IMG/VR virus record: IMGVR_UViG_3300028573_000022
Coordinates: 1-52,896 of that record
From: a virus
Length of the DNA stretch: 52,896 nucleotides
Reading direction: 5' to 3' (one strand)
Positions 16,030 through 50,204 of this stretch are shown here, piece after piece. Position numbers and translations under genes: made by a program. The notes below the pieces were generated by a model. The model saw only the letters and a program-made list of their open reading frames with translations. It was not told where the DNA came from and made no database searches. Position 1 is the first letter of the stretch; each line of letters opens with the position of its first letter.

Positions 16030-16084
16030 ACAACCATCATCGAAAAGGAGAATGCCATGGAACATTACTAGGGTCGAGAGTTCC

Positions 16085-16386: not shown

Positions 16387-16432
16387 AGTCGTTCGCGGTT
16401 GTTTTAGCTGGGGTGGAGGGGGGATTTCTGAA

Positions 16433-21326: not shown

Positions 21327-21354
21327 AGTGAAGTTCAATCCGAAGGAGGATGGC

Positions 21355-22501: not shown

Positions 22502-24064
22502 ATGCCCGACTCCAAGGTCGACATAGCCCAGCGAGAGGACGTGAGCCCGAAGGAGGGGACGCGCGATTACGGCGACGTTCAATTCGCGGACCCGATCAAC
22601 CACAGGTACCCGATCGACTGCGAGGAGCACATCCGCGCCGCCTGGTCGTATCTCCACCAAGGGAAGAACGCCGACAAGTACCCGGCCGAGGACGTGGCGC
22701 GGATGAAGTCGCGCATCGTCGCGGCCTGGAAGAAGCTGGTAGACCCCAAGGGCCCGCCCTCCGCGCGCGTGGATGGCGTGATGCGCTTCGACGCGGGCGC
22801 GCTGGGCAAGGCTGAGACGACACCGGAAGGATGGCTCAAAGTCCACGCGCGCATCGCCCGCGCAGGGATTTACGAGTACCGGAATCCGGACGGTACGGTG
22901 CGGCGTGAACTGCGGGCTCCCGAGGAAGTCTTCAAGGCCGACTCTTTGGACACCTTCGTGATGCGCCCGGTCACCGACGACCATCCCTGGGCCGAATCGC
23001 CGCCGCTCCTGACCCCCGCGAACGCTCGCACCTATCAACGGGGCTCCACCGGTGAATCGGTAATCCGGAGCGGCGACTACGTCGAGACGACCCTCATGAT
23101 CACAGACGGGAGTCTCATCGAGAAGATCAAGGGCGGGACACAAGAGGTGTCCGCCGGCTACCTCGCCGACACCGTGTGGGAACCCGGTGAATGGCACGGC
23201 CAGCCCTACGATTGCTATCAGGAGAACATCCGGGGGAACCACGTTGCCATCCTGCTGAAAGGTCGCGCAGGGGATGATGTGAGGCTCCGATTGGACAGCG
23301 GCGCGGCGGTCGCGATACGTCGGATCTGTGATGGTAACGAATCCATTTCCGAACCCCAGGAGCAAGCAATGTCGGGTGAGATGACGAAGACCAACATCGC
23401 CGGCATCGACTTCGATGTCCCGGCCCAGGTGGCGCAGGCGCTCGACAAGCACAACGCCGAGCACAAGGCAGAGCTCAAGTCGCACAAGGAGAAGGCCGAC
23501 AAGGCTGGCAAGTGCGACAAGTGCGACTCCGCGATGAGCTGCCCTAAGTGCGACGCGCCCCCCGCCGCCGAGAAGGACAGCACGAAGACCGACGCCGACT
23601 CGAAGGCGCTCGCTGACGCGCTGCAGAAGGAGAAGGCCCGAGCGGACGTAGCCGAAGCGAAGCTCGCGGCCTCCGAGAAGGCCCGCGTCGACGCCGCCGA
23701 CCCCAAGATCATCAACGCCCGCGTCTCTGCCCGCGTCGCCCTCGAGACCCAGGCCCGCGAGATCCTCGGCGCCGAAGCGAAGCTCGACACCATGGACGAC
23801 CTCGAGGTCAAGAAGACGGTGCTCGGCAAGATCGCGGAGCAGGTGAAACTCGACGGCAAGGACCCGGTCTACGTCGATGCCGCCTACGACAGCGCGATGG
23901 CTCTCGTTGGCCGGAAGACGCTCGGTGAGCTCCGCGTCGCCACCGGCGCCAAGTTCGACGGCAAGGAGTCGGACCCCAAGGTCGACGCTTCGTTCGTCTG
24001 GGAAAAGAACCGGGTCGAACAGGCGAACGCCTGGAAGCGCAATACCACCAAGGAAAACGCCTAA
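22502..24064 (+). CDS. Prohead protease (DUF2213) fused to scaffold, DUF6582-like N-terminus
   Basis: 520 residues from ATG 22502. Residues ~23-85 (GDVQFADPINHRYPIDCEEH, MKSRIVAAWKKL) look like DUF6582. Residues ~95-275 match DUF2213, a prohead-maturation-protease-like family: EGWLKVHARIARAGIYEYRN, FVMRPVTDDHPW, GGTQEVSAGYLAD and NHVAILLKGRAG. The remainder (from ~290) is a charged coiled coil with a CDKCDSAMSCPKC insert, suited to scaffolding. The ribosome site GAGAGG lies in a small hairpin (GCGATC/GATCGC) just before the ATG. The catalytic residues were not confirmed by alignment. Confidence 0.85.
   Translation: MPDSKVDIAQREDVSPKEGTRDYGDVQFADPINHRYPIDCEEHIRAAWSYLHQGKNADKYPAEDVARMKSRIVAAWKKLVDPKGPPSARVDGVMRFDAGALGKAETTPEGWLKVHARIARAGIYEYRNPDGTVRRELRAPEEVFKADSLDTFVMRPVTDDHPWAESPPLLTPANARTYQRGSTGESVIRSGDYVETTLMITDGSLIEKIKGGTQEVSAGYLADTVWEPGEWHGQPYDCYQENIRGNHVAILLKGRAGDDVRLRLDSGAAVAIRRICDGNESISEPQEQAMSGEMTKTNIAGIDFDVPAQVAQALDKHNAEHKAELKSHKEKADKAGKCDKCDSAMSCPKCDAPPAAEKDSTKTDADSKALADALQKEKARADVAEAKLAASEKARVDAADPKIINARVSARVALETQAREILGAEAKLDTMDDLEVKKTVLGKIAEQVKLDGKDPVYVDAAYDSAMALVGRKTLGELRVATGAKFDGKESDPKVDASFVWEKNRVEQANAWKRNTTKENA
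23369..24064 (+). CDS. Nested scaffold protein (internal start)
   Basis: An in-frame ATG at 23369 with CCAGGAG 8 nt upstream opens MSGEMTKTNIAGIDFDV exactly where the protease part ends and the coiled-coil part begins. It would yield a separate 231-residue scaffold, as in lambda C/Nu3. Inferred from ribosome site and domain boundary. Confidence 0.55.
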   Translation: MSGEMTKTNIAGIDFDVPAQVAQALDKHNAEHKAELKSHKEKADKAGKCDKCDSAMSCPKCDAPPAAEKDSTKTDADSKALADALQKEKARADVAEAKLAASEKARVDAADPKIINARVSARVALETQAREILGAEAKLDTMDDLEVKKTVLGKIAEQVKLDGKDPVYVDAAYDSAMALVGRKTLGELRVATGAKFDGKESDPKVDASFVWEKNRVEQANAWKRNTTKENA

Positions 24065-25068: not shown

Positions 25069-26010
25069 ATGTCAGCATTCAGAAGCTTCAATCTCCCGGT
25101 CCTGGACGCAGCCGAAAACCTCTTCTTCGAGCGTGAGCTCGAGGCCGTGGCGGCGAAGTCCTACGACATGAAGTACCCGCAGTTGAAGGGCCGCCAGTTG
25201 GTCCCCGTGAAGAACGACGTGGACCGCGGCATGGAAACCTTCAAGTTCAAGCAATACGACATGGCGGGTGTCGCCCTGATCGCGAACAACTACACGGACG
25301 CCATTCCGATGGTGAACGTGCGAGGCAAAGAGTTCCGCGTCGCCATCAAGCCGGTGGTGGACGGGTTCCAGTACAGCATCCAGGAAATCCAGAATGCTCG
25401 GAGGAACGGTATGCCGCTCGAGCAGCGAGAGGCCAATGCGGCCCGCCGCGCGATCGAGGAGAAGATCGACGCCATCATCGCGACCGGCGACTCGGATACG
25501 GGTCTTCTGGGCCTGCTCTCGCTGACGAATACGATCGTCTACACGCCCCCGAACGGCACCAGCGGTCACACTCAGTGGTCGACGAAAACGCCGCTCGAGA
25601 TCCTCGCGGACCTCAACGCGCTGGCGAATACGATCGTCTCCACCACGAACGAGGTCGAGATCCCCGATACGATCGTGATGCCCACCATCCAGCGGCAGCT
25701 CATCGCCAACACCCCGATCAGCCTCGCGGGCGCAACGTCGGTCTCCATCGAGGAGTACTTCCTCAAGACCAACAACTACATCAAGGAGATCGTCTCCTGG
25801 TACAAGTGCAAGGGCGCGGGCGCGAGCGGGACCGATCGCGCTGTCGCGTACCGCCGAGACCCGGACGCGATCCAGGCCGTCATTCCGCTGGAGGCCGAGT
25901 TCCTGCCTCCGCAACCGGTTGGTTTCGTGTTCAAGATCCCGGCGCACGCGCGCACCGCGGGCGTGGTCACGTATTACCCGATGTCGATCTGCTACGCAGA
26001 CAACATCTGA
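25069..26010 (+). CDS. Major capsid protein, DUF2184 family
   Basis: 313 residues from ATG 25069. YDMKYPQLKGRQLVPVKNDV, AAKSYDMK, EFRVAIKPVVDGFQYSIQEI, RRAIEEKIDAIIATGDSDTG and the C-terminal PIPLEAE-like IPLEAEFLPPQP match the DUF2184 HK97-fold capsid family. Follows the decoration protein by 24 nt. A second copy of the fold lies at 21355-22131. A strong pseudoknot-forming sequence begins 16 nt after its stop. Confidence 0.92.
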   Translation: MSAFRSFNLPVLDAAENLFFERELEAVAAKSYDMKYPQLKGRQLVPVKNDVDRGMETFKFKQYDMAGVALIANNYTDAIPMVNVRGKEFRVAIKPVVDGFQYSIQEIQNARRNGMPLEQREANAARRAIEEKIDAIIATGDSDTGLLGLLSLTNTIVYTPPNGTSGHTQWSTKTPLEILADLNALANTIVSTTNEVEIPDTIVMPTIQRQLIANTPISLAGATSVSIEEYFLKTNNYIKEIVSWYKCKGAGASGTDRAVAYRRDPDAIQAVIPLEAEFLPPQPVGFVFKIPAHARTAGVVTYYPMSICYADNI

Positions 26011-29567: not shown

Positions 29568-31058
29568 ATGCCGCTGAACGACATTTTCACCGTGAACATC
29601 ACGACCTCGAGTCCTGGGCTCACCGCGCTGGGCTTCGGCAAGCCGATGATCCTGGGCGCGTACACCAAGACGTGGTCGGAACTCTACCGGGAATACGCCT
29701 CGATCTCGGAAGTGGCCGTCGACTTCCTCGCGACCGATCCCGAGTACCGGATGGCCGCGCGCCTCTTCCAGCAGGATCCCCGGCCGCCGACCGTGGGAGT
29801 CGGCCGCGGTGCCCTGCCCCCGACCCAGCGATGGGCCATCACTCCGACCGTGCTCAACGCGACGGCGTACAAGCTCTACGTCGGCGACAAAACGGTGACG
29901 TACACCTCGGACTCGACGGCGACCGCAGCCGAGATCATCGGCGGGCTGCTCGCGCTCATCAACGCGCTGGCCCCTGCCTGGGCCGCGAACCACGCCTACT
30001 CGGTCGCTGATCGCTGCTCTTCGGGTGGGCTCGTCTATGAGTGCATCACCGCGGGAACCAGCAACAACTCCAGCCCTGCGGTTCCGCCGTCCGGGACCAC
30101 CTCGAACATCACAGATGGAACCGCACATTGGAAGTACGTCGGCGCCGCGGTGACGGCGAGCGACCAGACGACCTACCTGCGGATCGTCGTCCAGACCGCC
30201 GGCCTGTGGACCTCGGTCGAGGTCGACAACGTGACCCGGCTGTCGCTCGCTCAGGACCACGCCGATCCGGGCGTCGCGACCGACCTGGCCGCCATCAAGC
30301 TCGAGGATGATTCCTGGTACGAGCTCTTGACCCTCTCCAATTCCTACGCGGTCGTACTCGCCGCTGCCGGATGGGTCGAGACCGATGGAGGCAAGACCTA
30401 CGCGGCGCAGACCCAAGACACCGCGGTCGAGGCGACGGCACTCGCGGGCGCGACGGACATCGGCGAGAAGCTGCAGTCCCTCGGCTACGCGAGGACTCAC
30501 CTCTGGTACGACCGGGACGGCGCGGACTTCCTCGACGCCGGCGTCTCCGGTGCGTGCCTGCCGCTCGATCCCGGCACCGAGACCTGGAAGTTCAAGCAGC
30601 CGGCGGGATGCGCCGCCCTCTCGCTGACCTCGACACAGAAGAGCCACCTGGACGCGAAGAACGTCAACTACTTCTACGTCGTCACCCAATCGCTCGCGAT
30701 CACCGGCGAGGGCAAGGTGGCGAGTGGCGAGTGGATCGACATCGTTCGCGGGCGTGACGCGCTGGCGAACGCCATCCAAACGGCAGTGGTCAATGCCGTC
30801 ACCGACCCCGCGATTTCCAAGTTGCCGTATACCGACGCCGGGATCCAGGTGATCGCGAACCGAGTCCAGGAGGCGCTCACCAAGTTCGAGGTCTCGCCCG
30901 GACTGCTGACCCCGGGATCCTCGACGATCTCGGTTCCGAAGGCATCGAGCGTGAGCGACGCCGACCGCGCGGCCCGCGTCCTCAACAACCTGTCTTGGAC
31001 GGCGCAGCTCCAGAGCGCCATACACTCCGGCACCATCTCCGGCGTGGTCACGTACTAA
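29568..31058 (+). CDS. Tail sheath protein, DUF3383 family, with inserted module
   Basis: 496 residues from ATG 29568 (AGGAGG upstream). FTVNITTSSPGLTALGFGKP, YREYASISEVAVDF, LAAIKLEDDSWYELL and RVLNNLSWTAQLQSAIHSGT identify a DUF3383 contractile sheath. Residues ~137-192 are an extra carbohydrate-binding-like module between INALAP and TASDQTTYLRIVVQ. If exposed, the sheath would carry the same module as the capsid decoration protein. Confidence 0.9.
   Translation: MPLNDIFTVNITTSSPGLTALGFGKPMILGAYTKTWSELYREYASISEVAVDFLATDPEYRMAARLFQQDPRPPTVGVGRGALPPTQRWAITPTVLNATAYKLYVGDKTVTYTSDSTATAAEIIGGLLALINALAPAWAANHAYSVADRCSSGGLVYECITAGTSNNSSPAVPPSGTTSNITDGTAHWKYVGAAVTASDQTTYLRIVVQTAGLWTSVEVDNVTRLSLAQDHADPGVATDLAAIKLEDDSWYELLTLSNSYAVVLAAAGWVETDGGKTYAAQTQDTAVEATALAGATDIGEKLQSLGYARTHLWYDRDGADFLDAGVSGACLPLDPGTETWKFKQPAGCAALSLTSTQKSHLDAKNVNYFYVVTQSLAITGEGKVASGEWIDIVRGRDALANAIQTAVVNAVTDPAISKLPYTDAGIQVIANRVQEALTKFEVSPGLLTPGSSTISVPKASSVSDADRAARVLNNLSWTAQLQSAIHSGTISGVVTY
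29976..30143 (+). repeat. Carbohydrate-binding-like module, copy 3 (sheath)
   Basis: Encodes AWAANHAYSVADRCSSGGLV, followed by YECITAGTSNNSSPAVPPSG and ITDGTAHWKYVG; the ITDGTxxWxY ending matches copies 1 and 4. Confidence 0.8.
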
Positions 31059-32170: not shown

Positions 32171-33784
32171 ATGGTGTTGCAGGAATTGTTCTCCGTTATC
32201 GGTTTTAAGGTCGACAAGCCGTCGCTTTCCAATGCCGAGGCCGCAGTCGAGAAGGTGAAGCACGGGCTGACTCGGCTCGGTGAGGCGTTCGCCGCCTTCG
32301 AACTCGTCAAAAAGTTGAAAGAGATCGTCGAGGAGACCGCAGGCGCGGCGACGGGGGCCGCGAAAGCCGCTCAGCGGATCGGCGTCGCCCGGGAGTCCTT
32401 CGAGGAGCTCGCGCACGCCGCGCATGAGTCCGGGGTTCCCATCGAGGCGATGGAAACCGGGCTCAAGTTTCTTAACCGCAACCTGTACGCTGCGGGTAAA
32501 GGTAGCGGTGAGGCTGGTCAGTCGTTCCGTGCTCTAGGGATCGCAACCCGCGATGGCACTGGGAAGCTCCGTTCCGCCGACGACGTGATGATGGACGCGG
32601 CCGAGCGGTTCGCCGGCATGAAGGATGGAGCCGAGAAAACGGCGCTGTCCATGCGGCTGTTTGGCCGCTCAGGCAACGAACTGATCCCGATGCTCAACAA
32701 GGGCCGGGAAGGCCTCGCTGAGATGCGCCAGGAGGCGCATGAACTCGGGCTGGTGTTCTCCGAGGAAGACGTAGCCGCAGCAAAAGACTTCACGGTCTCA
32801 TCCCGCCGGCTGGATTCCGTCCTAGAGGGCGTGAAGCGACGCATCGGGATCGCGCTCCTGCCACAGCTCGGGAAAATGAAAAAGGAGTTCGCAGATTGGA
32901 TCATCGCCAACCGGGAGCTCATCAAGCAGCGCGTGGTCGAGTTCGCCGAAGGGCTTGGGAAGGCCCTGCGCGCGGTGGTTCAGGTGACAGAGCCACTCCG
33001 GGCCATGATTGCTTCGCTCATCGACCTGGTCGCGTCATCCAGTGAGGCGAAGACCGCGATCACAGTGCTCGGCGGCGCGCTGCTGCTCATGTTCAATGCG
33101 CCGCTGGCTTCGGCCATGGCGCTCTTCGGCATCATCGAGGAGATCTGGGGCTGGATCACCGGGAAGCGTGACACGCTCCTAGGTGACTGGCTCGGGCCAT
33201 TCCAGCAACTCGACAAGCTCAATCCGGCCGATAGCGACTTCACCAAGGGCATCAAGAGCCTGTTCATTTACATCAAGGAGAATGGACCGGGAGTCAAGGA
33301 CACCCTTGTAACGATCGCAAACGCGTTGCGTGCGATCTGGGACGTGACAGGAAAACCGATCACCTGGCTATTCCAGGAGACGGCCAAGCAGGCGCAGAAC
33401 ATGGCCCTGCCTGGTCCGGCCGGAGCTTTGGTCAACGTGGTCGCCGCGGGGCTCGCCGGCACAGGGACAGGCAGAGCGGCCGGAATAGGCGTTACTCCGG
33501 ATTCGACTCCCGCCGCAGGATCGGCGTGGCTCGGAACTTCGAGCGCGGGCGCCTTCGTAAACCTGCTGGCTGCCGTTCGAGACTCGATGCGAACGCCATC
33601 GTTTCAGCCCCTGGGCGGATCTGGAATTGGATCCATGGGCGGCGTGTCGGTAACGGTGAACGTTGACGCGGGCGGCACCGTAGGAGCCGCTGATGGTTCC
33701 AGGCTCGGGCAGCAGATCGGAGAACAGGTCCGAATCGAAATACAGAAGGTGGTCAGCAACGCGCACGTCTCGGTGAACCGATGA
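32171..33784 (+). CDS. Tail tape measure protein
   Basis: 537 residues from ATG 32171. The N-terminus is helical (VEKVKHGLTRLGEAFAAFEL), with GVARESFEELAHAAHESGVP and MRLFGRSGNELIPMLNKGRE, phrases common to tape measures; a hydrophobic segment (~297-330, ITVLGGALLLMFNAPLASAM) could be a membrane-spanning part. The Gly/Ala-rich C-terminus ends in SVTVNVDAGGTVGAADG. At ~0.15 nm per residue the tail would be about 80 nm long (rule of thumb). Confidence 0.85.
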   Translation: MVLQELFSVIGFKVDKPSLSNAEAAVEKVKHGLTRLGEAFAAFELVKKLKEIVEETAGAATGAAKAAQRIGVARESFEELAHAAHESGVPIEAMETGLKFLNRNLYAAGKGSGEAGQSFRALGIATRDGTGKLRSADDVMMDAAERFAGMKDGAEKTALSMRLFGRSGNELIPMLNKGREGLAEMRQEAHELGLVFSEEDVAAAKDFTVSSRRLDSVLEGVKRRIGIALLPQLGKMKKEFADWIIANRELIKQRVVEFAEGLGKALRAVVQVTEPLRAMIASLIDLVASSSEAKTAITVLGGALLLMFNAPLASAMALFGIIEEIWGWITGKRDTLLGDWLGPFQQLDKLNPADSDFTKGIKSLFIYIKENGPGVKDTLVTIANALRAIWDVTGKPITWLFQETAKQAQNMALPGPAGALVNVVAAGLAGTGTGRAAGIGVTPDSTPAAGSAWLGTSSAGAFVNLLAAVRDSMRTPSFQPLGGSGIGSMGGVSVTVNVDAGGTVGAADGSRLGQQIGEQVRIEIQKVVSNAHVSVNR

Positions 33785-34371: not shown

Positions 34372-34697
34372 TCTACTACCTGCCAGCGCGGACCGATCTG
34401 CAGCATTACGACTACCAGACCGACTTGGAGGGCGCGGTCTACACGCTTGAACTCTACTGGGATCAGCGCTCCGAATGTTGGTTGCTGTCGGTCTACGATG
34501 CCGAGTCGAACCCGATCGTCAGCGACCGAAAGGTCTTGCTCGGCTCCCCGCTGTTGGGGCGCGGGAATCGGCCGAGCGGCCCGCCCGGAACCATGATCGC
34601 GATCGACACCACCGGGGCTAACGTGGAGGCTGGGATCAGCGACCTGGGAGATCGCGTTCAGCTCGTCTATCTCGACTCCACGGAGGCGCTGTCGTGA
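34368..34697 (+). CDS. Baseplate plug-like protein (DUF6983 type)
   Basis: 109 residues from ATG 34368. GAVYTLELYWDQRSECWLLS, VYDAESNPIVSDRKVLLGSP, then FPP-like RPSGPPGTMIAIDTTG and DLGDRVQLVYLDS match the small protein family between Dit-like and hub genes. Confidence 0.75.
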   Translation: MIYYLPARTDLQHYDYQTDLEGAVYTLELYWDQRSECWLLSVYDAESNPIVSDRKVLLGSPLLGRGNRPSGPPGTMIAIDTTGANVEAGISDLGDRVQLVYLDSTEALS

Positions 34698-35617
34698 GCC
34701 TGGTTGGAACCATCACGAGCCGACAGCTTGTCGGGACCATCACCGAAACCGTCTTGGTTGGCACCATCACGACCAAAGCCACAGACGCGGGGCGCCTATG
34801 GCAACGGGCGTGGTCAGTCACGGTCGACACCATCAAGACCGATCAGCTACGGGTGGAGTTCACCGTCAAGAAGACGTTGACCGCGAATCCGAACACCTGC
34901 GATCTGAAACTCTACAATCTCTCGGAGACGACCCGAGCTCAAATCCAACGGAAGCGTGTGCCTGTCATCCTGGTGGCGGGATACCAGACCACCTCGGAGA
35001 TCATCTTCTCTGGGACCGCGCGCACCGTTGATCATGTCCGAGAGGGCGCCAACTGGGTCACGCACATCCAATGCGGCGACGGGGAGATGGCATTCACCGA
35101 CTCGCTGTCGACGATTTCGCAGGCCCCGGGAGTCACGGTACAGGACCAGCTTGCGCGCATCATCGGCGACATGAACATCAACACGCGAGACGCGGTCGCG
35201 GCGATCAGAAGCGGCAAGCTGTTGTTCGCCTTCCCTCGGCTACAGCAGGGGTACACCGCGCAGGGCAAGACGGTCCGGCTGCTCGACGCCGCACTTAGGC
35301 CTCACGGAATCCACTGGTCGATCCAAAACATGACGCTGCAGCTACTCCAGGGCTCGGCCCCCACCTCTGACACGGCGGTGCTGCTGTCGCCGGCGTCGGG
35401 GCTCATCGGCTCGCCCGACCACGGCGCGCCGCAGAAGGACGGGGCGCCCACGTATATCAAACTCAAGTCGCTACTCCAGCCCTCGATACGTCCGGGGCGT
35501 GTGCTACAACTCCGAACGCAGGCATTCAACGGCGATTACGTGACCCAGAAAGTCGAGCACAAGGGCGACTCTCATGGCCAAGAGTGGATCACCGAGATCG
35601 AATGTCTGCCGAGGTGA
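34694..35617 (+). CDS. Baseplate hub protein (gpD-like)
   Basis: 307 residues from GTG 34694. AGRLWQRAWSVTVDTIKTDQ, RVEFTVKKTLTANPNTCDLK, LYNLSETTRAQI, VILVAGYQTTSEIIFSGTAR and GDGEMAFTDS follow the hub pattern of such phages. The N-terminus carries three copies of LVGTIT about 10-11 residues apart, an extra low-complexity tail probably from local duplication. Confidence 0.8.
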   Translation: MSLVGTITSRQLVGTITETVLVGTITTKATDAGRLWQRAWSVTVDTIKTDQLRVEFTVKKTLTANPNTCDLKLYNLSETTRAQIQRKRVPVILVAGYQTTSEIIFSGTARTVDHVREGANWVTHIQCGDGEMAFTDSLSTISQAPGVTVQDQLARIIGDMNINTRDAVAAIRSGKLLFAFPRLQQGYTAQGKTVRLLDAALRPHGIHWSIQNMTLQLLQGSAPTSDTAVLLSPASGLIGSPDHGAPQKDGAPTYIKLKSLLQPSIRPGRVLQLRTQAFNGDYVTQKVEHKGDSHGQEWITEIECLPR

Positions 35618-35620
35618 CGC

Positions 35621-36259
35621 ATGCCTTCCGCTCTGCCTGAGATTGGACCGCTACCCGACCTGTCCGACGTGATCCGGCTCGCGGTGTCGCTCGCGGTGGC
35701 CGAACTCCACGTGTCCCTACCGGCGAAGGTCGTGCGCGTGGACCTGGCAAAAGGCCAGGTCGATGCCAAGCCGGTGGTGAAGGATGTCCTGAACGACGCA
35801 AATGGCAACCGGATAGCCCTATCCGTGCCGGTGGTGACGAACGTCCCGCTGGTCTTCCCGGGCGCGGGCGGCATGCGGATCACCTTCCCTGTCGCAGTCG
35901 GAGACACCGTGCTGCTGGTCTTCTCGGATCGCTCCCTGGACTCGTGGGCGGTGCAGGGCGGCGAAGTGGACCCGCTGGACGACAGGCGTCACCATCTCTC
36001 GGATGCCATCGCTATCCCGGGCCTGCGCGACTTCGGGCACGCCTGGAAGGGCGTGGACGCCGGCACCATGACCATCGGCAAGGACGGCGCCGCCCAACAT
36101 GCCGCGGGGCTCGGAGACCGAATCAGGACCGAACTTGACGCCGTCTGGGCTGCGATCTACGGCGCCACCGGGCACACGCATACCAGCAACGGAACTCCGG
36201 CCACAGGGCTTGCGTCCAAGCAGACTGTGACCTCCGGTACGGTGAAGGTCACGGAATGA
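35621..36259 (+). CDS. Baseplate spike (gpV/Gp138-like)
   Basis: 212 residues from ATG 35621. LHVSLPAKVVRVDLAKGQVD, VTNVPLVFPGAGGMRITFPV, AVGDTVLLVFSDRSLDSWA is the Gp138/gpV OB-fold; the C-terminus GHTHTSNGTPATGL has the HxH motif of metal-binding spike tips. Probably the membrane-piercing spike. Confidence 0.85.
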   Translation: MPSALPEIGPLPDLSDVIRLAVSLAVAELHVSLPAKVVRVDLAKGQVDAKPVVKDVLNDANGNRIALSVPVVTNVPLVFPGAGGMRITFPVAVGDTVLLVFSDRSLDSWAVQGGEVDPLDDRRHHLSDAIAIPGLRDFGHAWKGVDAGTMTIGKDGAAQHAAGLGDRIRTELDAVWAAIYGATGHTHTSNGTPATGLASKQTVTSGTVKVTE

Positions 36260-36263
36260 TACG

Positions 36264-36704
36264 GTGATCTCGATGGCATCGCTTGGGATACAGGTCGTCG
36301 GCGGGGACATCGTCTGGGGCGGCGGCGCGATCGCGGTCGTGACGGACCCGCTCGCCGCCCTGGCGCAGCTCCTGGTGTCGCGTCTCTCGATGGTCCTCGG
36401 CGAGTGGTTTCTTGACCCTGACGATGGCTTGGACCTCTACAACTCGATCCTAGGGAAGAGCCGGGGCGAAGGGGTCATCCGCCAGGCGCTCAGGACCCGG
36501 ATCCTGGGCACCCCTGGCGTGAAGGCGCTCCAGTCCCTATCCCTGGAGCTCGACGGCCAGACCAGGGCGCTTGCGATCCGAATCGTGGTTCAGGCGACGC
36601 CCACCGCGGCCAGCGTGGTGACCGGCTCGACGACCATCACGATTTCGTCGTCGGACGTGACTCGGACCAGTGAACTCGGGTTCGAGCTTGGAGGCGAGCT
36701 GTGA
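36264..36704 (+). CDS. Baseplate wedge protein (gp25-like)
   Basis: 146 residues from GTG 36264; ATG 36273 (MASLGIQVV) is possible. LAQLLVSRLSMVLGEWFLDP, DDGLDLYNSILGKSRGEGVI and RTRILGTPGVKALQSLSLEL match the gp25/gpW-like wedge family upstream of baseplate J. Confidence 0.8.
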   Translation: MISMASLGIQVVGGDIVWGGGAIAVVTDPLAALAQLLVSRLSMVLGEWFLDPDDGLDLYNSILGKSRGEGVIRQALRTRILGTPGVKALQSLSLELDGQTRALAIRIVVQATPTAASVVTGSTTITISSSDVTRTSELGFELGGEL

Positions 36705-38053
36705 CAACGGCCTATGGCGTGACGGACACCGGATTCGTGGTCAAGTCGCTTGAGGAGTGCGTTTCCGAGTTGCAGGCGCTCTTCTACGCCACATTCGGCA
36801 ACGGGATCTCGCTCGACAACAGCACGCCCGAGGGTCAGTTGATCGGCATCATCTCGGAGCGGGAGTCCGAGCTTTGGGACATGGCATCCGAGGTCTACGC
36901 CTCCCGGGACCCGGATCAGGCCACCGGTGCGGCGCTGGCGGCCCTCGCCATGATCACCGGCACGGTCGGACCCAAGGCGGCCACGCACTCGCAGCTCGGC
37001 GCGCTGACCCTCGGGGGAACCACGGGTACCATCGTCCCCGCCGGCTCGCAGGCGAGCGTCTCAGGGACCGGGGTGAAGCTCCAGACCCTGCAGTCCGGAA
37101 CCCTTGCCGCGGTGAGCGCCTGGGCTGGATCTCATGGCTACGCCCTCGGCGCGCGCGCGACGAACGGCGGAAGCGTCTACGAGGTCGTCACCGCCGGCAC
37201 CTCGGCGAGTTCAGGTGGCCCTACCACCTCCGGAACTGACATCACCGATGGCTCGGTCCATTGGCGCTATCTGGGTGCGGGTGATGGGGCGGTGGACGTG
37301 ACAGCGCAGGCCGTGGACACCGGCCCCCTCGCGGCGCCGTCGCGGACGATCTCGCAGATCGAGACCCCGGTGTCGGGCTGGGCGTGGGTCACGAACGCCA
37401 ACGATGCCGCGCCAGGCACGGACGAAGAGACGGACGCCGCTCTCCGCACGCGCCGCTTGGCTGAGCTCGAGGCGCAGGGGAACTCGACCGTCGACGCCAT
37501 TCGCGCTCACCTTCTGAGGGTGGCCGGAGTGACGGCCTGCACCGTCTTCGAGAACATCACCGACACCACCGACACCGATGGACGCCCCCCGCATTCCGTC
37601 GAGGTAGTGGCGACGGGCGGGGCGACCCAGGACCTGTTGAATGCGGTCTGGGCGGCCAAGCCGGGCGGGATCCAGTCCTACGGGACCACGTCCGGAACCG
37701 TGGTGGACTCACAGGGGACCGACCACACTGTGTCATTCGCGCGCCCAGTCCCAGTCCCGATCTACCTGATCCTCGACGTGGCCATCAACGCCGACCTGTA
37801 CCCGGCAGATGGAGACGCCCAGGTCGAGGCGGCCGTGCTGGCCTACGGGATTGCCTCTCTGGCGCTCGGGGTGGACGTGATCCCCTTCCAACTCTCGCGC
37901 GTGATCGAGGTCAGCGGAGTCGAGGACGTGACGATCTACCTCGGCACGGCGCCGGCGCCCAGCGGCCAGACGAAGATTTCGATCGGCCACACGCAACAGG
38001 CGGTACTGGACTCCAGCCGAATCACCGTCACCTCTTCGCCCTTCGTGCCCTGA
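36701..38053 (+). CDS. Baseplate J-like wedge protein with inserted module
   Basis: 450 residues from GTG 36701. GFVVKSLEECVSELQALFYA, STPEGQLIGIISERESELWD, GTDEETDAALRTRRLAEL-like PGTDEETDAALRTRRLAELE and AIRAHLLRVAGVTACTVFEN are baseplate J. Residues ~139-192 are the fourth carbohydrate-binding-like module, placed between a beta strand and AVDVTAQAVDTGPLAAP. Confidence 0.9.
   Translation: MTTAYGVTDTGFVVKSLEECVSELQALFYATFGNGISLDNSTPEGQLIGIISERESELWDMASEVYASRDPDQATGAALAALAMITGTVGPKAATHSQLGALTLGGTTGTIVPAGSQASVSGTGVKLQTLQSGTLAAVSAWAGSHGYALGARATNGGSVYEVVTAGTSASSGGPTTSGTDITDGSVHWRYLGAGDGAVDVTAQAVDTGPLAAPSRTISQIETPVSGWAWVTNANDAAPGTDEETDAALRTRRLAELEAQGNSTVDAIRAHLLRVAGVTACTVFENITDTTDTDGRPPHSVEVVATGGATQDLLNAVWAAKPGGIQSYGTTSGTVVDSQGTDHTVSFARPVPVPIYLILDVAINADLYPADGDAQVEAAVLAYGIASLALGVDVIPFQLSRVIEVSGVEDVTIYLGTAPAPSGQTKISIGHTQQAVLDSSRITVTSSPFVP
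37115..37276 (+). repeat. Carbohydrate-binding-like module, copy 4 (baseplate J)
   Basis: Encodes SAWAGSHGYALGARATNGGS, followed by VYEVVTAGTSASSGGP and ITDGSVHWRYLG. Confidence 0.75.
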
Positions 38054-38647: not shown

Positions 38648-39346
38648 ATGGGGCTTCTGACTTCGCTTCCTCGTTGGGCCACTGGCGGTAGCGCTCAGAT
38701 CACGGAGCCGTCTAGCGGTAAAAAGGACACAGGATGGGTTCCGGCCGAGAAGCCTCCGGCTCAATACATGAATTGGCTCTTCAAGACAATCTATAACGCG
38801 GCTGTAGTTCTTGATGGACTCGCAGGGATAGCGATGACGTGGACGGCGGCGCACGTTTTTAACGCCGGCCTGTCGGCGTCCAGCGCTGCATTTACAGGCG
38901 CGATCACAGTGCAGACCCCTACCGTCGCGGCCAACCCGCTTCGCTTTGACTCGGTGCTGGGCGTGGCGAATCTGCCAGCGCTGAACAGGGTCGCGAGCAG
39001 TGACAGCGGATCGTTTTACACCACTTCGGACACCCTGGTGGACGTAACCAATCTATCCGTCAGCATCACCACCAGGGGGCGCCCTGTCATGATTGCAGTG
39101 ACGCCATCTGGAGCCATAAACGGATCGACGATACTGGTGGACGGAACGGCAACGACGCAAAACACCATGTCTATCACCAGAGATGGGACGACTGTGGCCG
39201 TAATGACTGTTGGGTACGGAGCGAACATACCGGCGATACTCATGTTTGATTCGCAGGCTGCGGGCACGTACGTCTACAAACTGCGGGCTAGCGGCACGTC
39301 AGGGATAGGCGTGTATTACTGCAAACTATCGGTGATTGAACTGTAA
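38648..39346 (+). CDS. Tail fibre protein
   Basis: 232 residues from ATG 38648 (AGGAGAG upstream). The N-terminus RWATGGSAQITEPSSGKKDT, GWVPAEKPPAQYMNWLFKTI is a widespread phage fibre attachment motif. The body is beta-rich and ends AGTYVYKLRASGTSGIGVYY. The last 31 nt overlap the convergent lipoprotein gene. Local GC is lower than in preceding tail genes, suggesting a different origin. Confidence 0.8.
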   Translation: MGLLTSLPRWATGGSAQITEPSSGKKDTGWVPAEKPPAQYMNWLFKTIYNAAVVLDGLAGIAMTWTAAHVFNAGLSASSAAFTGAITVQTPTVAANPLRFDSVLGVANLPALNRVASSDSGSFYTTSDTLVDVTNLSVSITTRGRPVMIAVTPSGAINGSTILVDGTATTQNTMSITRDGTTVAVMTVGYGANIPAILMFDSQAAGTYVYKLRASGTSGIGVYYCKLSVIEL

Positions 39347-39897
39347 GCTACACACCGAACGTCTAACAGCTGCCATTCCTCGTATGCGTCGCTCTGCCAG
39401 TATGCCTTGGTGACGGTGCCTGCCGGACAGTCGGACAGTCCGTCCCAGGCGGCATTAGCCCATGAACACTCGACGTAGCCTCCAGAGATCTCTACTACGT
39501 CAGCATTCGAGCAGAGCCTGCTTTGATCGGCCTGAACGATAGTCGACTGGGTCGGCAGGGTCCCACAAGTGACCGAGGCGAGTTCAAACGGATCGCTATC
39601 GAACGAATCGAAGACCGCGACTATTTTGGCGTCCTGACAGGTCGGAAACTTTGTCCAAGCCTCAACGTCAGCCGCGTGGTCGGTAGGGCGGTAGGAGATC
39701 CAAGAGGCGTTGCCCCAAGCGCAGGTGATCTCTGTTGTTTGGTCGCTGCTCTGGGTGCTGACCAAGATCTCGGTGGTGCGGGTATCCGCATTAGAGCAGG
39801 CCGTGGTTTGGTCGGCCCATGTGGTCTTGTCTCCCTGGATCGGAGAACCACAGCCGATAGTCAGGACCAGCGTCATCATCGCAATTCGGGTCATCAT
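39316..39897 (-). CDS. Two-domain Cys-rich lipoprotein
   Basis: 193 residues on the minus strand from ATG 39897 (39894 is a second Met). MTRIAMMTLVLTIGC is a lipoprotein signal with a lipobox ending in Cys. The mature part holds two related units: CSNADTRTTEI...TCAWGNASW...C...C and CSNADVVEISGGYVECSWAN...C...C, each about 80 residues with four Cys, probably two disulfide bonds each. Last gene of the leftward island. An envelope-located accessory role such as superinfection exclusion is possible but unproven. Confidence 0.7.
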   Translation of the reverse strand: MMTRIAMMTLVLTIGCGSPIQGDKTTWADQTTACSNADTRTTEILVSTQSSDQTTEITCAWGNASWISYRPTDHAADVEAWTKFPTCQDAKIVAVFDSFDSDPFELASVTCGTLPTQSTIVQADQSRLCSNADVVEISGGYVECSWANAAWDGLSDCPAGTVTKAYWQSDAYEEWQLLDVRCVAYSSITDSLQ

Positions 39898-40085
39898 GTC
39901 TGCCTCTGAGAGCCCAACAGGGCGGCGGTGGGGAAAAATTCGATCACGTCAGCTAGCTGCGAGTCCAGGCGATGCGAGGCGGCTTGCTTGAGTGCCCACG
40001 CGGCCTCGTGCTCAGGGGATCCGGCCGGGGAGAGCGTCAACGCCGCGCCGAAGAAGGCTACCGCCTGGAGATTGTGGTCTCGCAT
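39894..40085 (-). CDS. Small hypothetical protein
   Basis: 63 residues from ATG 40085 with GGAGAGGA upstream on the minus strand; the stop overlaps the lipoprotein ATG by 4 nt. LQAVAFFGAALTLSPAGSPE, HEAAWALKQAASHRLDSQLA: helical, no family recognised. Confidence 0.55.
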   Translation of the reverse strand: MRDHNLQAVAFFGAALTLSPAGSPEHEAAWALKQAASHRLDSQLADVIEFFPTAALLGSQRQT

Positions 40086-40087
40086 GA

Positions 40088-40324
40088 TCAGTCCTCTCCG
40101 ATCACGCCGAGCTCCTCGATGGCGTCGAGGATTCCGGCCGGCAGGGCGCTGAGGTTGCGGTAGTAGAGGTCGGCCAGTTGCTGCTCGACGACCCAGCAGT
40201 CCATGGGGGTCATTCCGGCGCTGTCCAGGGAGGCCAGCAGGTTCCGCGCGGTCTCAGCGACGGGATCCGGTGACTCGAAGGCGTAGGCCTGCAGACTATC
40301 CGGCAGAATAAGAGTGGCGCTCAT
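40088..40324 (-). CDS. Small helical hypothetical protein
   Basis: 78 residues from ATG 40324 (GAGGGGAAC upstream on minus strand). PDPVAETARNLLASLDSAGM, TPMDCWVVEQQLADLYYRNL and ILDAIEELGVIGED: helical and acidic, plausible protein-binding factor. Follows the 3' hairpin of the cassette at 40373-40420. Confidence 0.6.
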   Translation of the reverse strand: MSATLILPDSLQAYAFESPDPVAETARNLLASLDSAGMTPMDCWVVEQQLADLYYRNLSALPAGILDAIEELGVIGED

Positions 40325-40372
40325 GTTCCCCTCGCGGTTTTGCTATTCGCCCGCAGGGCCTCCCGACCGTAG

Positions 40373-40420
40373 TCGGGGAGTCCTGCCGGCGGGCCCCGTA
40401 GGGCCCGGGGTGCGGCTACT
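40373..40420 (-). repeat. 3' flank repeat, copy 1, with GGGCCC hairpin
   Basis: 48 nt nearly identical (one mismatch) to 42487-42534. It begins at the stop codon of the upstream cargo gene and contains CGGGCCC-TACG-GGGCCCG, a 7-bp tetraloop hairpin. Possibly a terminator or RNA-stabilising 3' end; no T-tract. Confidence 0.8.
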
Positions 40421-40940
40421 GCTTGACCGCGCGATACTGCGCGAGCTCGGGATCGGAGGCGCGCGCTGCGTGCTCCCATACCAGGGTGGCGCGAACCATC
40501 TCGTCGAGCTCGTCCTGATCGGCGTCCTGCTCGAGGTGGTAGTGATCGGGATGCGGGGCTACCCACAGTCCGTCCGGGGTGTGCACGAGCCAGCCATGCG
40601 ACTCGGCTACGGTCTCGTCCCAGCGCACTTGGATCTCGTGCAGCGTGCTCTCGGTCCGGTCCTCCTCGCTGGTGGTGAGCACCTCCGAAATCCACGCGAG
40701 CACGCAGCCGTCCTGATCCTCGGAGGGATCCCCGCTCTCGACCATCACGGGAGCATCAGCGTGTTTCTCGGCCCACTCGCCGAGCAGGTAGATCTGATTC
40801 CCGGGCAGGACATCGATCGCGCCGACCTCGCGGTCGAATCCGTCGGGGATCTCATAGACCGGGGTGGACGCGGGGAGGGTGTGAATCGTTCCGCTGGTGA
40901 GGTCCCGCACCTTGATCATCTGCTGGCTCTGGTTCGTCAT
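40416..40940 (-). CDS. Cargo protein of leftward cassette 1 (acidic, unknown)
   Basis: 174 residues from ATG 40940 with GGGAGAG upstream. IKVRDLTSGTIHTLPASTPV, YEIPDGFDREVGAIDVLPGN, QIYLLGEWAEKHADAP and EHAARASDPELAQYRAVKQ; strongly acidic (DADQDELDEM). An in-frame ATG at 40976 would add 12 residues, but those codons coincide with the leader hairpin, which is identical in the unrelated cassette 2. Not recognised; acidity would fit an anti-defence protein, but this is speculation. Confidence 0.7.
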   Translation of the reverse strand: MTNQSQQMIKVRDLTSGTIHTLPASTPVYEIPDGFDREVGAIDVLPGNQIYLLGEWAEKHADAPVMVESGDPSEDQDGCVLAWISEVLTTSEEDRTESTLHEIQVRWDETVAESHGWLVHTPDGLWVAPHPDHYHLEQDADQDELDEMVRATLVWEHAARASDPELAQYRAVKQ

Positions 40941-40942
40941 GG

Positions 40943-41012
40943 TCTCTCTCCCTGCTCGGTCGCTCCGTGCGACCATGGATAGACGATACTACTACGTCTG
41001 ACGGGTGTCAAG
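40943..41012 (-). repeat. 5' flank repeat, copy 1 (promoter plus leader)
   Basis: 70 nt with two mismatches to 42892-42961. Includes the promoter, leader hairpin (GGTCGC/GCGACC, 40958-40974) and ribosome site of the cassette 1 cargo gene. Confidence 0.9.
40983..41011 (-). promoter_or_regulatory. Strong sigma70 promoter of cassette 1
   Basis: On the minus strand TTGACA (41011-41006), exactly 17 nt, then TATCGT (40988-40983). Transcription would begin near 40976, immediately before the leader hairpin. The -35 overlaps the stop of the AP2-like gene. Confidence 0.85.
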
Positions 41013-41481
41013 TATCCATAGGTCCACGAAAACACAGGCCAAATTTTGCCACCAGGCCGTGCTCGCGCACGATATCGTCGCGATCGCGCGCGGCCTCCTC
41101 TGGCGTGGCTCGGCAGGAGCCTGTGATGATTTTGACCCCAGGCACGTTGACCACGGACCGCCAGTAAACGCGGCCATGCTTCCCTGTCCGGTACACGCTG
41201 GGATATCCAGAGACGGCCGATTTCCCTTTTCGAGGGACGCCTGACCCGAGCCGACCGCATTCGGCCGCGGACTCCCTGTGCAGCAGGCGACGGGAGTTCA
41301 CAGGGATCGGCTCGCCACGCTCGGCGGCCTCCCGGACTCGAGCCGGGATATCGCACTGGGGAACGTTATCCCAACCGGCCGAGATGAGTCGGTCTAGTGC
41401 CCGTTCATGCGCCCTGTCCGCCCGGCGCGACTCTTCACTCTCGAGTGGATAGTGCCTCGTAAGCTCCGTCATGCCCGTCAT
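41008..41481 (-). CDS. AP2-like DNA-binding domain protein
   Basis: 157 residues from ATG 41481 (AGGGGGACGAA upstream on minus strand). The C-terminal half SGYPSVYRTGKHGRVYWRSV, VNVPGVKIITGSCRATPEEA, ARDRDDIVREHG is an AP2/ERF-like three-strand-plus-helix domain, common in phage HNH homing proteins. The N-terminal half RALDRLISAGWDNVPQCDI is helical. No nuclease motif is visible. Confidence 0.7.
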   Translation of the reverse strand: MTGMTELTRHYPLESEESRRADRAHERALDRLISAGWDNVPQCDIPARVREAAERGEPIPVNSRRLLHRESAAECGRLGSGVPRKGKSAVSGYPSVYRTGKHGRVYWRSVVNVPGVKIITGSCRATPEEAARDRDDIVREHGLVAKFGLCFRGPMDT

Positions 41482-41726
41482 TTCGTCCCCCTGCCGTTGG
41501 CGTGCTTTTCCGCGAGTTCGCGCAATTTGATGCCGGGGCGCTTCCCGAGCGCCCTCCATGTCGACTCCCGGAGTCGGAGCGAGTAGCGCCTCATCCCCTC
41601 CCCGGGCCCCGATCTCTCTCGGATCTCGGTGAGTGGTCGGCCCCGGAGCTGCTGCAGGTAATGACTGGCGCAGAGCCCCTTGGCGCAGGCCTCTCGACCG
41701 CATCCGAGGAATGAGCAAGTCGACAC
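41478..41726 (-). CDS. Zinc-motif DNA-binding-like protein
   Basis: 82 residues from GTG 41726, preceded by GGAGG on the minus strand. CSFLGCGREACAKGLCASHY, LQQLRGRPLTEIRE is the phage C..C..GLC..HY..RG zinc motif. The remainder is basic (RLRESTWRALGKRPGIKLRE). Stop overlaps the AP2-like gene start by 4 nt. The same motif appears in decayed form at about 42349-42411. Confidence 0.65.
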   Translation of the reverse strand: MSTCSFLGCGREACAKGLCASHYLQQLRGRPLTEIRERSGPGEGMRRYSLRLRESTWRALGKRPGIKLRELAEKHANGRGTK

Positions 41727-41727
41727 G

Positions 41728-42261
41728 TTAGACCTCCTCGACGGGCGCGGCCGCGGTCGGAGTCGGAGCGGCCGCGTCTGCCTCGATCTCGCCGAGCCCG
41801 CGCTCACGGAACGCCCGCGCCAGGTCCATGCGAGTCGCCATCGGCATCTTAGCGATCGCCACCTGGAGCCCGGCGATCTGCTGGCCGGCGTACTTCGCCT
41901 GCTCCTGGGCCGCATGGAGTCGGCGGCGCAGGCTGCGGACATCGGGATCATCCATCGCGGCGAGTTGGGCCGACAACACCGCATTCTGTTCCGCGCGGAG
42001 CGTAGCTTCGGCGCTGGACGTGGCGGCGATCTGTACCGACTCGGCGAGGTCGACCTGGAGTTTCTCGGAAAACGCTTGGAGTCGCTGGATCTCCTTCTCA
42101 CTCTCGATCCGTGCCTGGGCGTTCTCCGTCTGAGCCTCTCCCAAGCGCTTCACGAGGCGTTGATTCTCCTCCCAGAGACCTTGGAGTTTGAGGACCTCGA
42201 GTTCGGCTGCGTTGGCGCGGGCGGCGAGAATGGCGTTCTTGGTGGGCTGCGGCTTGGCCAT
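41728..42261 (-). CDS. Coiled-coil protein
   Basis: 177 residues from ATG 42261 (AGGAGAGGG upstream). A long heptad region (ENQRLVKRLGEAQTENAQAR, ESEKEIQRLQAFSEKLQVDL) ends in an Ala/Pro-rich acidic tail. No family recognised. It lies 1 nt from the zinc-motif gene, so the two are probably co-transcribed. Confidence 0.6.
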   Translation of the reverse strand: MAKPQPTKNAILAARANAAELEVLKLQGLWEENQRLVKRLGEAQTENAQARIESEKEIQRLQAFSEKLQVDLAESVQIAATSSAEATLRAEQNAVLSAQLAAMDDPDVRSLRRRLHAAQEQAKYAGQQIAGLQVAIAKMPMATRMDLARAFRERGLGEIEADAAAPTPTAAAPVEEV

Positions 42262-42348
42262 GATGTTTGTCCCTCTCCTGGGCTGTGGTGCCCTCTCTCG
42301 ATCGGACTCGGGTCGGCGCGAGGGAGGGCCGGGCGAGGTGTCGCCCGG

Positions 42349-42411
42349 TATCGCCGTCAATGTGTGGCCGCGCTGTTGCTGGCGGTAATGGTTGGCGTAG
42401 GTTCCTGTCGG
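42349..42411 (-). pseudogene. Decayed copy of zinc-motif protein
   Basis: The minus strand upstream of the coiled-coil gene encodes GTYANHYRQQQRGHTLTAI, which aligns to GLCASHYLQQLRGRPLTEI of the protein at 41478-41726 with the key Cys replaced by Tyr, and no usable start. It lies in a 268-nt stretch (42262-42529) otherwise without a gene except the hairpin repeat at its right end. Confidence 0.45.
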
Positions 42412-42486
42412 CTCCTCGCCGGCTCTTCCTCGCCGCTCCGCGCGGTGAGGTTCGGGCTGCGTGCCCGCAGGGCGCTCCGAGGTGAC

Positions 42487-42534
42487 TCGGGGAGTCCTGC
42501 CGGCGGGCCCCGTAGGGCCCGGAGTGCGGCTACT
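42487..42534 (-). repeat. 3' flank repeat, copy 2, with GGGCCC hairpin
   Basis: 48 nt with one mismatch to 40373-40420, including the stop codon of cargo 2 and the GGGCCC-TACG-GGGCCC hairpin. Confidence 0.8.
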
Positions 42535-42889
42535 CCTCATCGCGGAGGCTGACGCCGTGGCGACTCACCTCCAGGTCGGCGGCGGGAGCGCCCCCGCGCC
42601 CAGCGACATAGGCGTCTGCGGCCGGAGTGATCTTGACGATCCGGTACTCCGAGGTGGCGTCACCGGAGCCCCGGCGCGCATCCGCGATCGCAGCCTCGGG
42701 GGTGCTGCCCAGTCCGTACACGGCGCCAGAGATCGGGTCGGTCGCGTCGATCGCCGCAAACCGCCGGCGGTCATCGACCCCTGCTCCTGCCTGATCGTAA
42801 GCCGCCGCGTAGGGATTGGGCTCGCCGGAATCGATCGCCGCCTGAAAGTTGCTAGCAAATTTCGCGATATCAAACTTAGGGTTCGCCAT
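42530..42889 (-). CDS. Cargo protein of leftward cassette 2 (unknown)
   Basis: 119 residues from ATG 42889. MANPKFDIAKFASNFQAAID, SGEPNPYAAAYDQAGAGVDD, DPISGAVYGLGSTPEAAIAD, YRIVKITPAADAYVAGRGGA. It shares no recognisable similarity with cargo 1 beyond the M-x-N start, although both are flanked by the same 70-nt and 48-nt repeats. Function unknown. Confidence 0.7.
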   Translation of the reverse strand: MANPKFDIAKFASNFQAAIDSGEPNPYAAAYDQAGAGVDDRRRFAAIDATDPISGAVYGLGSTPEAAIADARRGSGDATSEYRIVKITPAADAYVAGRGGAPAADLEVSRHGVSLRDEE

Positions 42890-42891
42890 GT

Positions 42892-42961
42892 TCTCTCTCC
42901 CTGCTCGGTCGCTCCGTGCGACCATGGATAGACAATACTACTACGTCTGACGGTTGTCAAG
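42892..42961 (-). repeat. 5' flank repeat, copy 2 (promoter plus leader)
   Basis: 70 nt matching 40943-41012 with two mismatches; leader hairpin GGTCGC/GCGACC at 42907-42923. Confidence 0.9.
42932..42960 (-). promoter_or_regulatory. Strong sigma70 promoter of cassette 2
   Basis: Minus strand TTGACA (42960-42955), 17-nt spacer, TATTGT (42937-42932), immediately after the coiled-coil gene's stop at 42964. Confidence 0.85.
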
Positions 42962-42963
42962 GG

Positions 42964-43164
42964 CTACTTCGCCAGTTTCGCCTCGAGGTCCTCGAGCTCC
43001 TGGTGCGCGCGGGCGAACTGCTCCTCGACCTCGCGGGCGGACTGGAGGCGGGCTGCGGCGGCGAGACGGGCGGCGCGCTGGGCGGCGAGGCGGGCGGGAA
43101 GCTCTGCGGAGATGCGGAGACTGGCGAGGATGTCTGCGATGAGCGTCGTCGTGGTGGTCTTCAT
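42964..43164 (-). CDS. Small coiled-coil protein
   Basis: 66 residues from ATG 43164. After TTTTTLIADILASLRISAEL the rest is an Arg/Ala/Glu helix (RLQSAREVEEQFARAHQELE). Ribosome site is weak. First gene of the leftward island; its own promoter was not found. Confidence 0.5.
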   Translation of the reverse strand: MKTTTTTLIADILASLRISAELPARLAAQRAARLAAAARLQSAREVEEQFARAHQELEDLEAKLAK

Positions 43165-47108: not shown

Positions 47109-47395
47109 ACTTGCCATCGATCGACGTTGCCTCGCTCTGCCTCGGGATCGCGGTTGGGCTAGTATTCGCCGCAGGGGTATTCGCTGTCGCCTTTGGTTGG
47201 AGCGTCAAGCAGATGGTCGCCATCGTCCGAGAAGCCCGAGAGGCGTCCAGCAAGGCGAAGGCGCTCGCGTCCAACCTCCTCACGCTCTACGGCGCGATTC
47301 CGGAGAAGGTAGAGAGGATGGACGAGAGATTGAAGTGCCTGGAGCGGGCAGAGCGGTTGCGCACTCCGCTGAAAATGGAGGTGGCAGATGGCTAA
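47105..47395 (+). CDS. Small membrane protein with coiled coil (lysis region)
   Basis: 96 residues from GTG 47105. One TM segment (LCLGIAVGLVFAAGVFAVAF) followed by a charged helix VKQMVAIVREAREASSKAKA and ERMDERLKCLERAERLR. Candidate Rz-like i-spanin. Overlaps the endolysin start by 8 nt. Confidence 0.55.
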   Translation: MNLPSIDVASLCLGIAVGLVFAAGVFAVAFGWSVKQMVAIVREAREASSKAKALASNLLTLYGAIPEKVERMDERLKCLERAERLRTPLKMEVADG

Positions 47396-47903
47396 CTTCG
47401 ACCCGGCAATCAAGGTGGTCCTGGAGCACGAGGGCGGTCTGTCCGACGATCCTGTCGATCCGGGAGGCGTAACGAATTGGGGGATCACGCTGGGATGGCT
47501 CCACGATTTCGAGCCCGGCGCAACCGCCGATACGATTCGTCGCATGACGAGGGAGTCGGCAGTGCAGCGTTACCGGGACTACGTCTGGGATCGCCAAGGG
47601 TACGGCGAGATCTACGATCAGGACGTGGCAACCAAATGGTTTGATGCGGCTGTGAATTTCGGTGAGCGACAGGCCAACATGCTCGGCCAGGCGGCGCTCA
47701 ACGCCATCGGATTCAACTTGGATCACGATGGCGTGCTTGGCGCGCGGACTTTGGCGGCCATCAATCGCACGGATTCGGACCGCCTGGTGATGGCGATGAG
47801 CTCGGTCTATTCCGCGAAGTACCATTCAATCGTCGAGAAGCGACCCGCGTCGGTGAAATTTTTGGTAGGATGGTTACGACGTGCTCGCTGGCCGAGGGAG
47901 TGA
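47388..47903 (+). CDS. Endolysin, glycoside hydrolase family 108
   Basis: 171 residues from ATG 47388 (GGAGG upstream). VVLEHEGGLSDDPVDPGGVT and NWGITLGWLHDF are the GH108 (N-acetylmuramidase) signature with catalytic Glu15 in EGG; the C-terminal ~90 residues, ALNAIGFNLDHDGVLGARTL, form the PG_binding_3 domain. It cuts peptidoglycan to release progeny. No signal peptide, so export needs a holin. Confidence 0.92.
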   Translation: MANFDPAIKVVLEHEGGLSDDPVDPGGVTNWGITLGWLHDFEPGATADTIRRMTRESAVQRYRDYVWDRQGYGEIYDQDVATKWFDAAVNFGERQANMLGQAALNAIGFNLDHDGVLGARTLAAINRTDSDRLVMAMSSVYSAKYHSIVEKRPASVKFLVGWLRRARWPRE

Positions 47904-49970: not shown

Positions 49971-50204
49971 ATGCCTGCTGAACATCATCGAGCCGCATAC
50001 CTGATACTGGCAGACAATCTACGAGCTACTCGGATCGCGAAGGGTTTAACATTGCGCGATCTGGAGCGCCTATCCGGAATCAACAACTCGAACCTGAGCA
50101 GACTCGAGCGCGGCCAGCGACAACAGGTCCGAGGCTTAGGCTATATCGATCGATTGGCCACTGCGTTGGGCGTGTCGGTGGCTGACTTGCTGAGGGAAAC
50201 ATAG
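49971..50204 (+). CDS. XRE-family helix-turn-helix protein
   Basis: 77 residues from ATG 49971. NLRATRIAKGLTLRDLERLS, GINNSNLSRLERGQRQQV and ATALGVSVADLLRE: a Cro/C1 HTH. No visible ribosome site upstream; see the promoter entry. It begins the right-end operon that includes two methyltransferases and may regulate them. Confidence 0.8.
   Translation: MPAEHHRAAYLILADNLRATRIAKGLTLRDLERLSGINNSNLSRLERGQRQQVRGLGYIDRLATALGVSVADLLRET

Follow-up and report, generated by a model that had tools for sequence, protein, structure and literature searches.

A contractile-tail phage record of 52,896 bp, the whole of which is the window analysed here, carries one regulatory frame twice, each time enclosing a different and unrelated coding gene, and we consider it probable that the two units (cassettes A and B, Table 1) are stand-alone expression units. 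The frame has exact limits and occurs at these two places only in the genome; both flanks lie where the sequence-only reading of this DNA had placed them, and the feature is real and well marked. Evidence for a frame includes limits of likeness that coincide with functional borders at both ends. Counting against it are the two copies only, in a single genome, and the lack of an independent cassette elsewhere.

As we picture it, a sigma-70-type promoter would start the transcript at or near the 5' stem-loop, ahead of a ribosome site that extends into codon 3. A two-hairpin end bearing C(UACG)G tetraloops follows the stop codon; it may terminate, process or protect the message. Each enclosed accessory gene would then be read leftward as a stand-alone, probably stable monocistronic message. 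That the promoter works is our inference, as is protection or termination of the transcript by the hairpins.

Table 1. Positions of the cassettes, their neighbours and other phage genes in the window
Feature	Position	Strand	Remarks
Cassette A 5' flank	42890..42961	(-)	
Cassette A promoter	-35 42960-42955; -10 42937-42932	(-)	TTGACA, 17-nt spacer, TATTGT
Cassette A leader		(-)	hairpin GGTCGC-ACGGA-GCGACC, GGGAGAG ribosome site
Cargo ORF A	42530..42889	(-)	119 aa, pI 4.7, orphan
Cassette A 3' element	42463..42532	(-)	TAG, CGGGCCC(TACG)GGGCCCG hairpin, nested hairpin
Cassette B 5' flank	40941..41012	(-)	includes leader hairpin and ribosome site
Cassette B promoter	-35 41011-41006; -10 40988-40983	(-)	TTGACA, 17-nt spacer, TATCGT
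Cargo ORF B	40416..40940	(-)	174 aa, pI 4.3, net charge about -25, strongly acidic, orphan
Cassette B 3' element	40349..40418	(-)	TAG, CGGGCCC(TACG)GGGCCCG hairpin, nested hairpin
177-aa likely coiled coil	41728..42261	(-)	orphan; direction as cassettes
Zinc-finger-like piece	41478..41720	(-)	resembles N-termini of HNH endonucleases (phrog_19978, E 1.5e-9)
Basic protein	41008..41472	(-)	C-terminal part like Vibrio phage DNA-binding / HNH endonuclease protein
Small Cro/CI-type HTH proteins (n=4)	1053-1259, 5580-5816, 20283-20483, 49971-50204		
PD-(D/E)XK exonuclease, phage type	74-1003		
Terminase	11525-12907		family search
Portal	12921-14504		family search
Head protease	22502-24064		family search
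Major capsid	25069-26010		family search
Sheath	29568-31058		family search
Tape measure	32171-33784		family search
Baseplate genes	within 34694-38053		family search
Endolysin	47388-47903		family search

Genomic setting

The type of phage was read from family searches of the window proteins, which gave a complement of head, sheath and baseplate genes, together with tail fibre or spike genes and, at the right end of the window, methyltransferases. Almost all genes point rightward, with one leftward block (39316-43164) that has a tail-fibre-like gene (38648-39346) on one side and, on the other, the point where rightward genes resume. Both cassettes lie within this block, whose genes are mostly orphans, and they share one orientation at a spacing of about 2 kb. 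Exact repeated 25-mers are confined to the cassette flanks and one array of GGTCGN hexamers (about 15.85-16.03 kb); the flank copies stand in direct orientation and include identical runs of 42 nt in the leader and 36 nt in the 3' block.

Several other features of the record were observed. A one-piece tmRNA gene (16085-16387, plus strand; 104.6 bits in Rfam; tag ANEPMQQLAVA) is set among the phage genes, with head morphogenesis on one side and nucleotide metabolism on the other; over its first 90 nt it matches part of Myxococcus phage Mx1 at 77% identity, and the hexamer array, GGTCG[T/G/C], directly precedes it (15843-16030). Two genes of the major-capsid family (PF09950 / phrog_264), at 21328-22131 and the capsid position in Table 1, flank the head protease gene and are alike (E 4e-38). 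Among the small genes at the left end, two pairs of gene junctions are repeated, one of 58 nt at 81% (3998-4055 / 6502-6559) and one of 30 nt at 87% (5798-5827 / 7137-7166); these include start codons and may represent a second kind of shared gene border. DUF5131 and DUF1643 proteins are also encoded there (2522-3598 and 7591-8115).

The 5' flank

Taken from the C before the -35 box through the base before ATG, the 5' flank measures 72 nt and differs at three positions between the copies (69/72 identical). The order in both units is C-TTGACA, 17 nt, TAT(C/T)GT, CTATCC, the ATGGTCGCACGGAGCGACC hairpin, GAGCAGGGAGAGAGA and the start codon, and likeness is bounded by the -35 box, upstream of which there is none, and by codon 3. 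Consensus-like promoters (TTGAC[A/T]-16/18-TANNNT, with at least 4/6 matches in the -10 hexamer) were sought on both strands of the 53 kb, and only those of the two cassettes were found, on either strand. At up to 3 mismatches, the promoter piece (the -10-side piece was the one tested by shuffling) and the leader piece each have exactly two sites in the window, with 0 expected for each in shuffled sequence; the bare 15-nt spacer by itself is not significant, 1.07 sites being expected in shuffles. The spacer carries CGTCAGACG, and in copy B an inverted pair, AGACG-N9-CGTCT, surrounds the -10 box. Stoperators of the Cluster-A-like kind (GGNTGTCAAG adjoining -35) were considered and rejected, with 11 sites against 11.0 expected and both exact sites being the -35 boxes themselves.

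The 3' element

Behind each gene the order is last codon, TAG, CCGCAC, the hairpin CGGGCCC(UACG)GGGCCCG, and an outer stem GCCGGCAGG...CCCTGCGGGC round an inner stem. The inner loop is TCAC in cassette A, and the nested hairpin of cassette B bears a second C(UACG)G tetraloop. Likeness is bounded by the last codon and by the foot of the second hairpin, ending at once beyond the outer stem. The sequence-only reading had a 5' flank of almost the size found here; its 48-nt 3' flank held the first hairpin only and overlooked the second, nested stem-loop, with which the repeat runs on to 40349 and 42463. Three differences in all had been claimed, and four are found over this shorter extent, three in the 5' flank and one in the 46-nt inner 3' block.

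The GGGCCC hairpin has exactly two sites in the window at up to 3 mismatches (0.25 expected in shuffles). Long C(UNCG)G hairpins, with a stem of at least 6 bp and both strands scanned, number three in the genome, all of them in the two 3' elements; block shuffles give 1.06 anywhere. Compared with shuffled sequences, the 3' element of copy B folds clearly better (z -3.1) and that of copy A moderately better (z -2.0). Known RNA elements were absent from the cassettes in Rfam.

Counted from the stop codon, the copies agree at 61 of 70 nt, and 8 of the 9 differences gather near the inner-stem tip of the nested hairpin. Over both flanks together, 8/12 differences fall within 14/142 positions at one hairpin tip (p about 4e-7, calculated post hoc). 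Both copies still pair at the changed tip; the case for conserved pairing there depends on a single clear compensatory pair, and tips refilled at random fold equally well in 6-7% of trials. Because differences are few overall and many at one still-paired tip, it is suggested that selection may maintain most of the frame and that the hairpin may function as a structure. No U-tract follows the hairpin of either cassette, and a simple terminator scan picked neither; judged by its sequence, the 3' element is not a textbook intrinsic terminator, and since the U-tract is lacking, that label exceeds the data.

Enclosed genes, neighbours and possible regulators

Both cargo ORFs are supported by codon usage, with scores per codon of 0.29 and 0.21 on the minus strand against 0.02 and -0.03 on the plus strand, and antisense plus-strand ORFs over the cassettes were ruled out on this ground. 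The two are unrelated, as the sequence-only reading had said in stating that only the ORF differs: comparisons of ORF A with ORF B and of each with every other window protein gave no match. Neither has a significant match in PHROGs, Pfam, NCBIfam or PDB sequences (the single PDB-sequence match of ORF B, E 0.3, is insignificant) or in PADLOC, which covers defence and not anti-defence proteins, and no relatives of either were found among viral contigs, phages and plasmids. Structure models were too poor for use (mean pLDDT 54 for A and 45 for B); the single-sequence model of ORF A, itself unreliable, hints at a beta-beta-alpha-beta core. The earlier proposal of anti-defence cargo therefore finds no support in protein families, PDB sequences or such models. 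The likeliest class would be small accessory proteins that act on the host.

Three other genes separate the two units. The basic protein nearest to cassette B is 40% identical to the Vibrio phage protein over 63 aa (E 1e-3), and the TGA stop of its gene lies inside the -35 box of that cassette. It can be speculated that HNH-type or DNA-binding genes between the copies could have imported or converted the adjacent DNA.

Elsewhere the phage encodes four small proteins of the Cro/CI-type HTH class, of which the one at 1053-1259 is detectably similar to those at 5580-5816 and 20283-20483. They could act on the cassette promoter, and regulation is possible. Constant expression, perhaps also from a prophage, had been proposed for the cassettes, and we found no support for either; the proteins scanned did not include an integrase. 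Given the CGTCAGACG in the spacer, the inverted pair in copy B and the HTH proteins encoded, neither constitutive nor prophage expression is established.

Occurrence in other genomes

Patterns for the promoter, leader and 3' hairpin had no match in IMG/VR, and the promoter pattern, the one flank part scanned in GTDB species genomes, had none there; both were exact-pattern scans, which diverged flanks escape and which perhaps left out records very near the window. A search of the cassette region against phages and plasmids gave nothing. As far as the databases reach, the flanks are confined to this genome, which is half of what the sequence-only reading had named as evidence against it.

Capsid and terminase searches gave relatives, with tail genes common only to three of them (G001-G003), apparently copies of a single phage; their capsid identity to the window is 71%. 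In G001 the cassette block is replaced by unrelated DNA and only HNH pieces are shared, elsewhere in its genome. The block behaves as accessory DNA, because apart from these HNH-type pieces it has no counterpart in G001. A search with ORF B of nine related records gave nothing. The nearest phage matches of the major capsid are all below 36% identity, mostly from phages of 38-70 kb.

Alternative explanations

It is possible, though we lean against it, that homologous recombination through the identical flanks repeatedly swaps cargo between phages, as at moron or anti-defence loci. The earlier idea of cargo exchange stands in so far as identical runs in direct orientation would allow such recombination, and at 42 and 36 nt they are longer than the ~25 bp of identity usually quoted as sufficient for RecA pathways. 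The phage also encodes a PD-(D/E)XK exonuclease, HNH-type genes lie between the copies, and precedents are reported for T4-like phages (PMC4503421) and the haloarchaeal HGTV-1 (PMC3950731). However, no third cargo and no further genome with the flanks was found, and the tip differences mean that the copies are not freshly exchanged. Recombination between them would, moreover, delete 1.9-2.1 kb, an arrangement unstable unless selected; since about 2 kb would be lost in this way, the presence of both copies implies selection or recent arrival. Rather unlikely, in our view, is co-regulation without mobility, in which one phage or host regulator acts on both units and selection, perhaps with gene conversion within the genome, keeps the control regions alike. 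This would fit a likeness that stops at functional borders, the motifs in the spacer and around the -10 box of copy B, and the HTH proteins, but a shared operator leaves unexplained the 42 identical leader bases with hairpin loop and ribosome site, as well as the matching 3' elements, unless leader and 3' element were once copied together.

It is improbable that a whole gene was duplicated in tandem together with its flanks, one ORF then diverging beyond recognition. The same orientation, the spacing of about 2 kb and other duplicated genes in this genome (capsid, methyltransferase) are compatible with such a duplication, yet identity is 96% and 87% in the flanks, whereas the ORFs are of different lengths and show no similarity, and drift is not expected to diverge so far solely inside ORF limits. 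We also give little credence to a leaderless start at an in-frame ATG 36 nt upstream (40976 / 42925, 6 nt past the -10 box), which would give both proteins the N-terminus MVARSDRAGRE. That ATG is in frame in both copies, and on the minus strand TATNNT-6 nt-ATG occurs only at the two cassettes; the stretch, however, has no codon-usage signal (-1.3) and folds into a hairpin that is followed by a ribosome site, and a good start codon lies downstream (40940 / 42889).

Returning to two copies of one frame around stand-alone genes, a gene would have entered the second copy via recombination in or adjoining the flanks, a route also proposed for PeSL cassettes of T4-like phages, and cargo exchange would be a reasonable, though conjectural, history. 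More tentatively, and with considerable doubt, the frame may be a two-ended expression socket, bounded by -35 and codon 3 at one end and by the last codon and the base of the double hairpin at the other, in which whole ORFs are exchangeable; if so, ORF swaps at start and stop codons would keep a ready-made, end-protected single-gene transcript. If genes do exchange via such frames, the frame could serve as bait for fast-changing phage accessory genes without recognisable homologs, and raw metagenomes could be queried with the 42-nt leader and the 36-nt 3' block, both being sufficiently exact.

Comparison with known systems

Repeated control elements have been described in other viruses. In the haloarchaeal tailed virus HGTV-1, a repeated motif of TATA box and inverted repeat stands before many ORFs (PMC3950731); one repeated promoter and inverted-repeat motif ahead of ORFs in a single virus is what our frame has in common with it, whereas HGTV-1 has an archaeal promoter type, many copies and no matching 3' element described (PMC3950731). 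The SAS and ESAS of Cluster K mycobacteriophages comprise a 13-bp start-site repeat in many copies that is thought to be translational (PMC3203893). Like the present repeat, they lie directly upstream of the start codons in genes from different families, partly with inverted repeats, but here the repeat contains a promoter and is joined by a separate 3' element, and the 13-bp GGGATAGGAGCCC is absent from the cassette 5' flank sequence. Morons, in the account of PMC6469090, are extra genes thought to be transcribed independently of their neighbours. Their hallmark is that close relatives lack them; no close relative was found here, and the comparison is with one distant relative only; of an own promoter and terminator, the cassettes have a promoter matching the consensus and hairpins without a U-tract.

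By anatomy, the nearest known kind appears to be the PeSL (promoter early stem-loop) cassettes of T4-like phages, although membership is not claimed. In PeSLs the stem-loop and the promoter stand together in one gap. These composite promoter-terminator motifs are reported to mediate shuffling and to be densely repeated where shuffling is intense (PMC4503421, citing Arbiol 2010, Comeau 2014). Both kinds are repeated intergenic modules of promoter and stem-loop, placed beside unrelated accessory ORFs in a variable region of a phage with a contractile tail, and a role in expression and gene shuffling has been proposed for PeSLs. Unlike PeSLs, each gene here has its own promoter and leader before it and its own two-hairpin element behind, and three other genes lie between the units. 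Promoter and stem-loop are indeed repeated round unrelated ORFs in one genome, but with two copies in 53 kb rather than at high density; as to variable gene content, the sole relative sharing structural genes is without the unit, and as to a T4-like background, the record has a contractile tail and 53 kb, with the low capsid identities given above. If genes are indeed exchanged through them, the present cassettes would carry the PeSL idea beyond T4-like phages, into a smaller myovirus and in a form whose 5' and 3' elements are separate.
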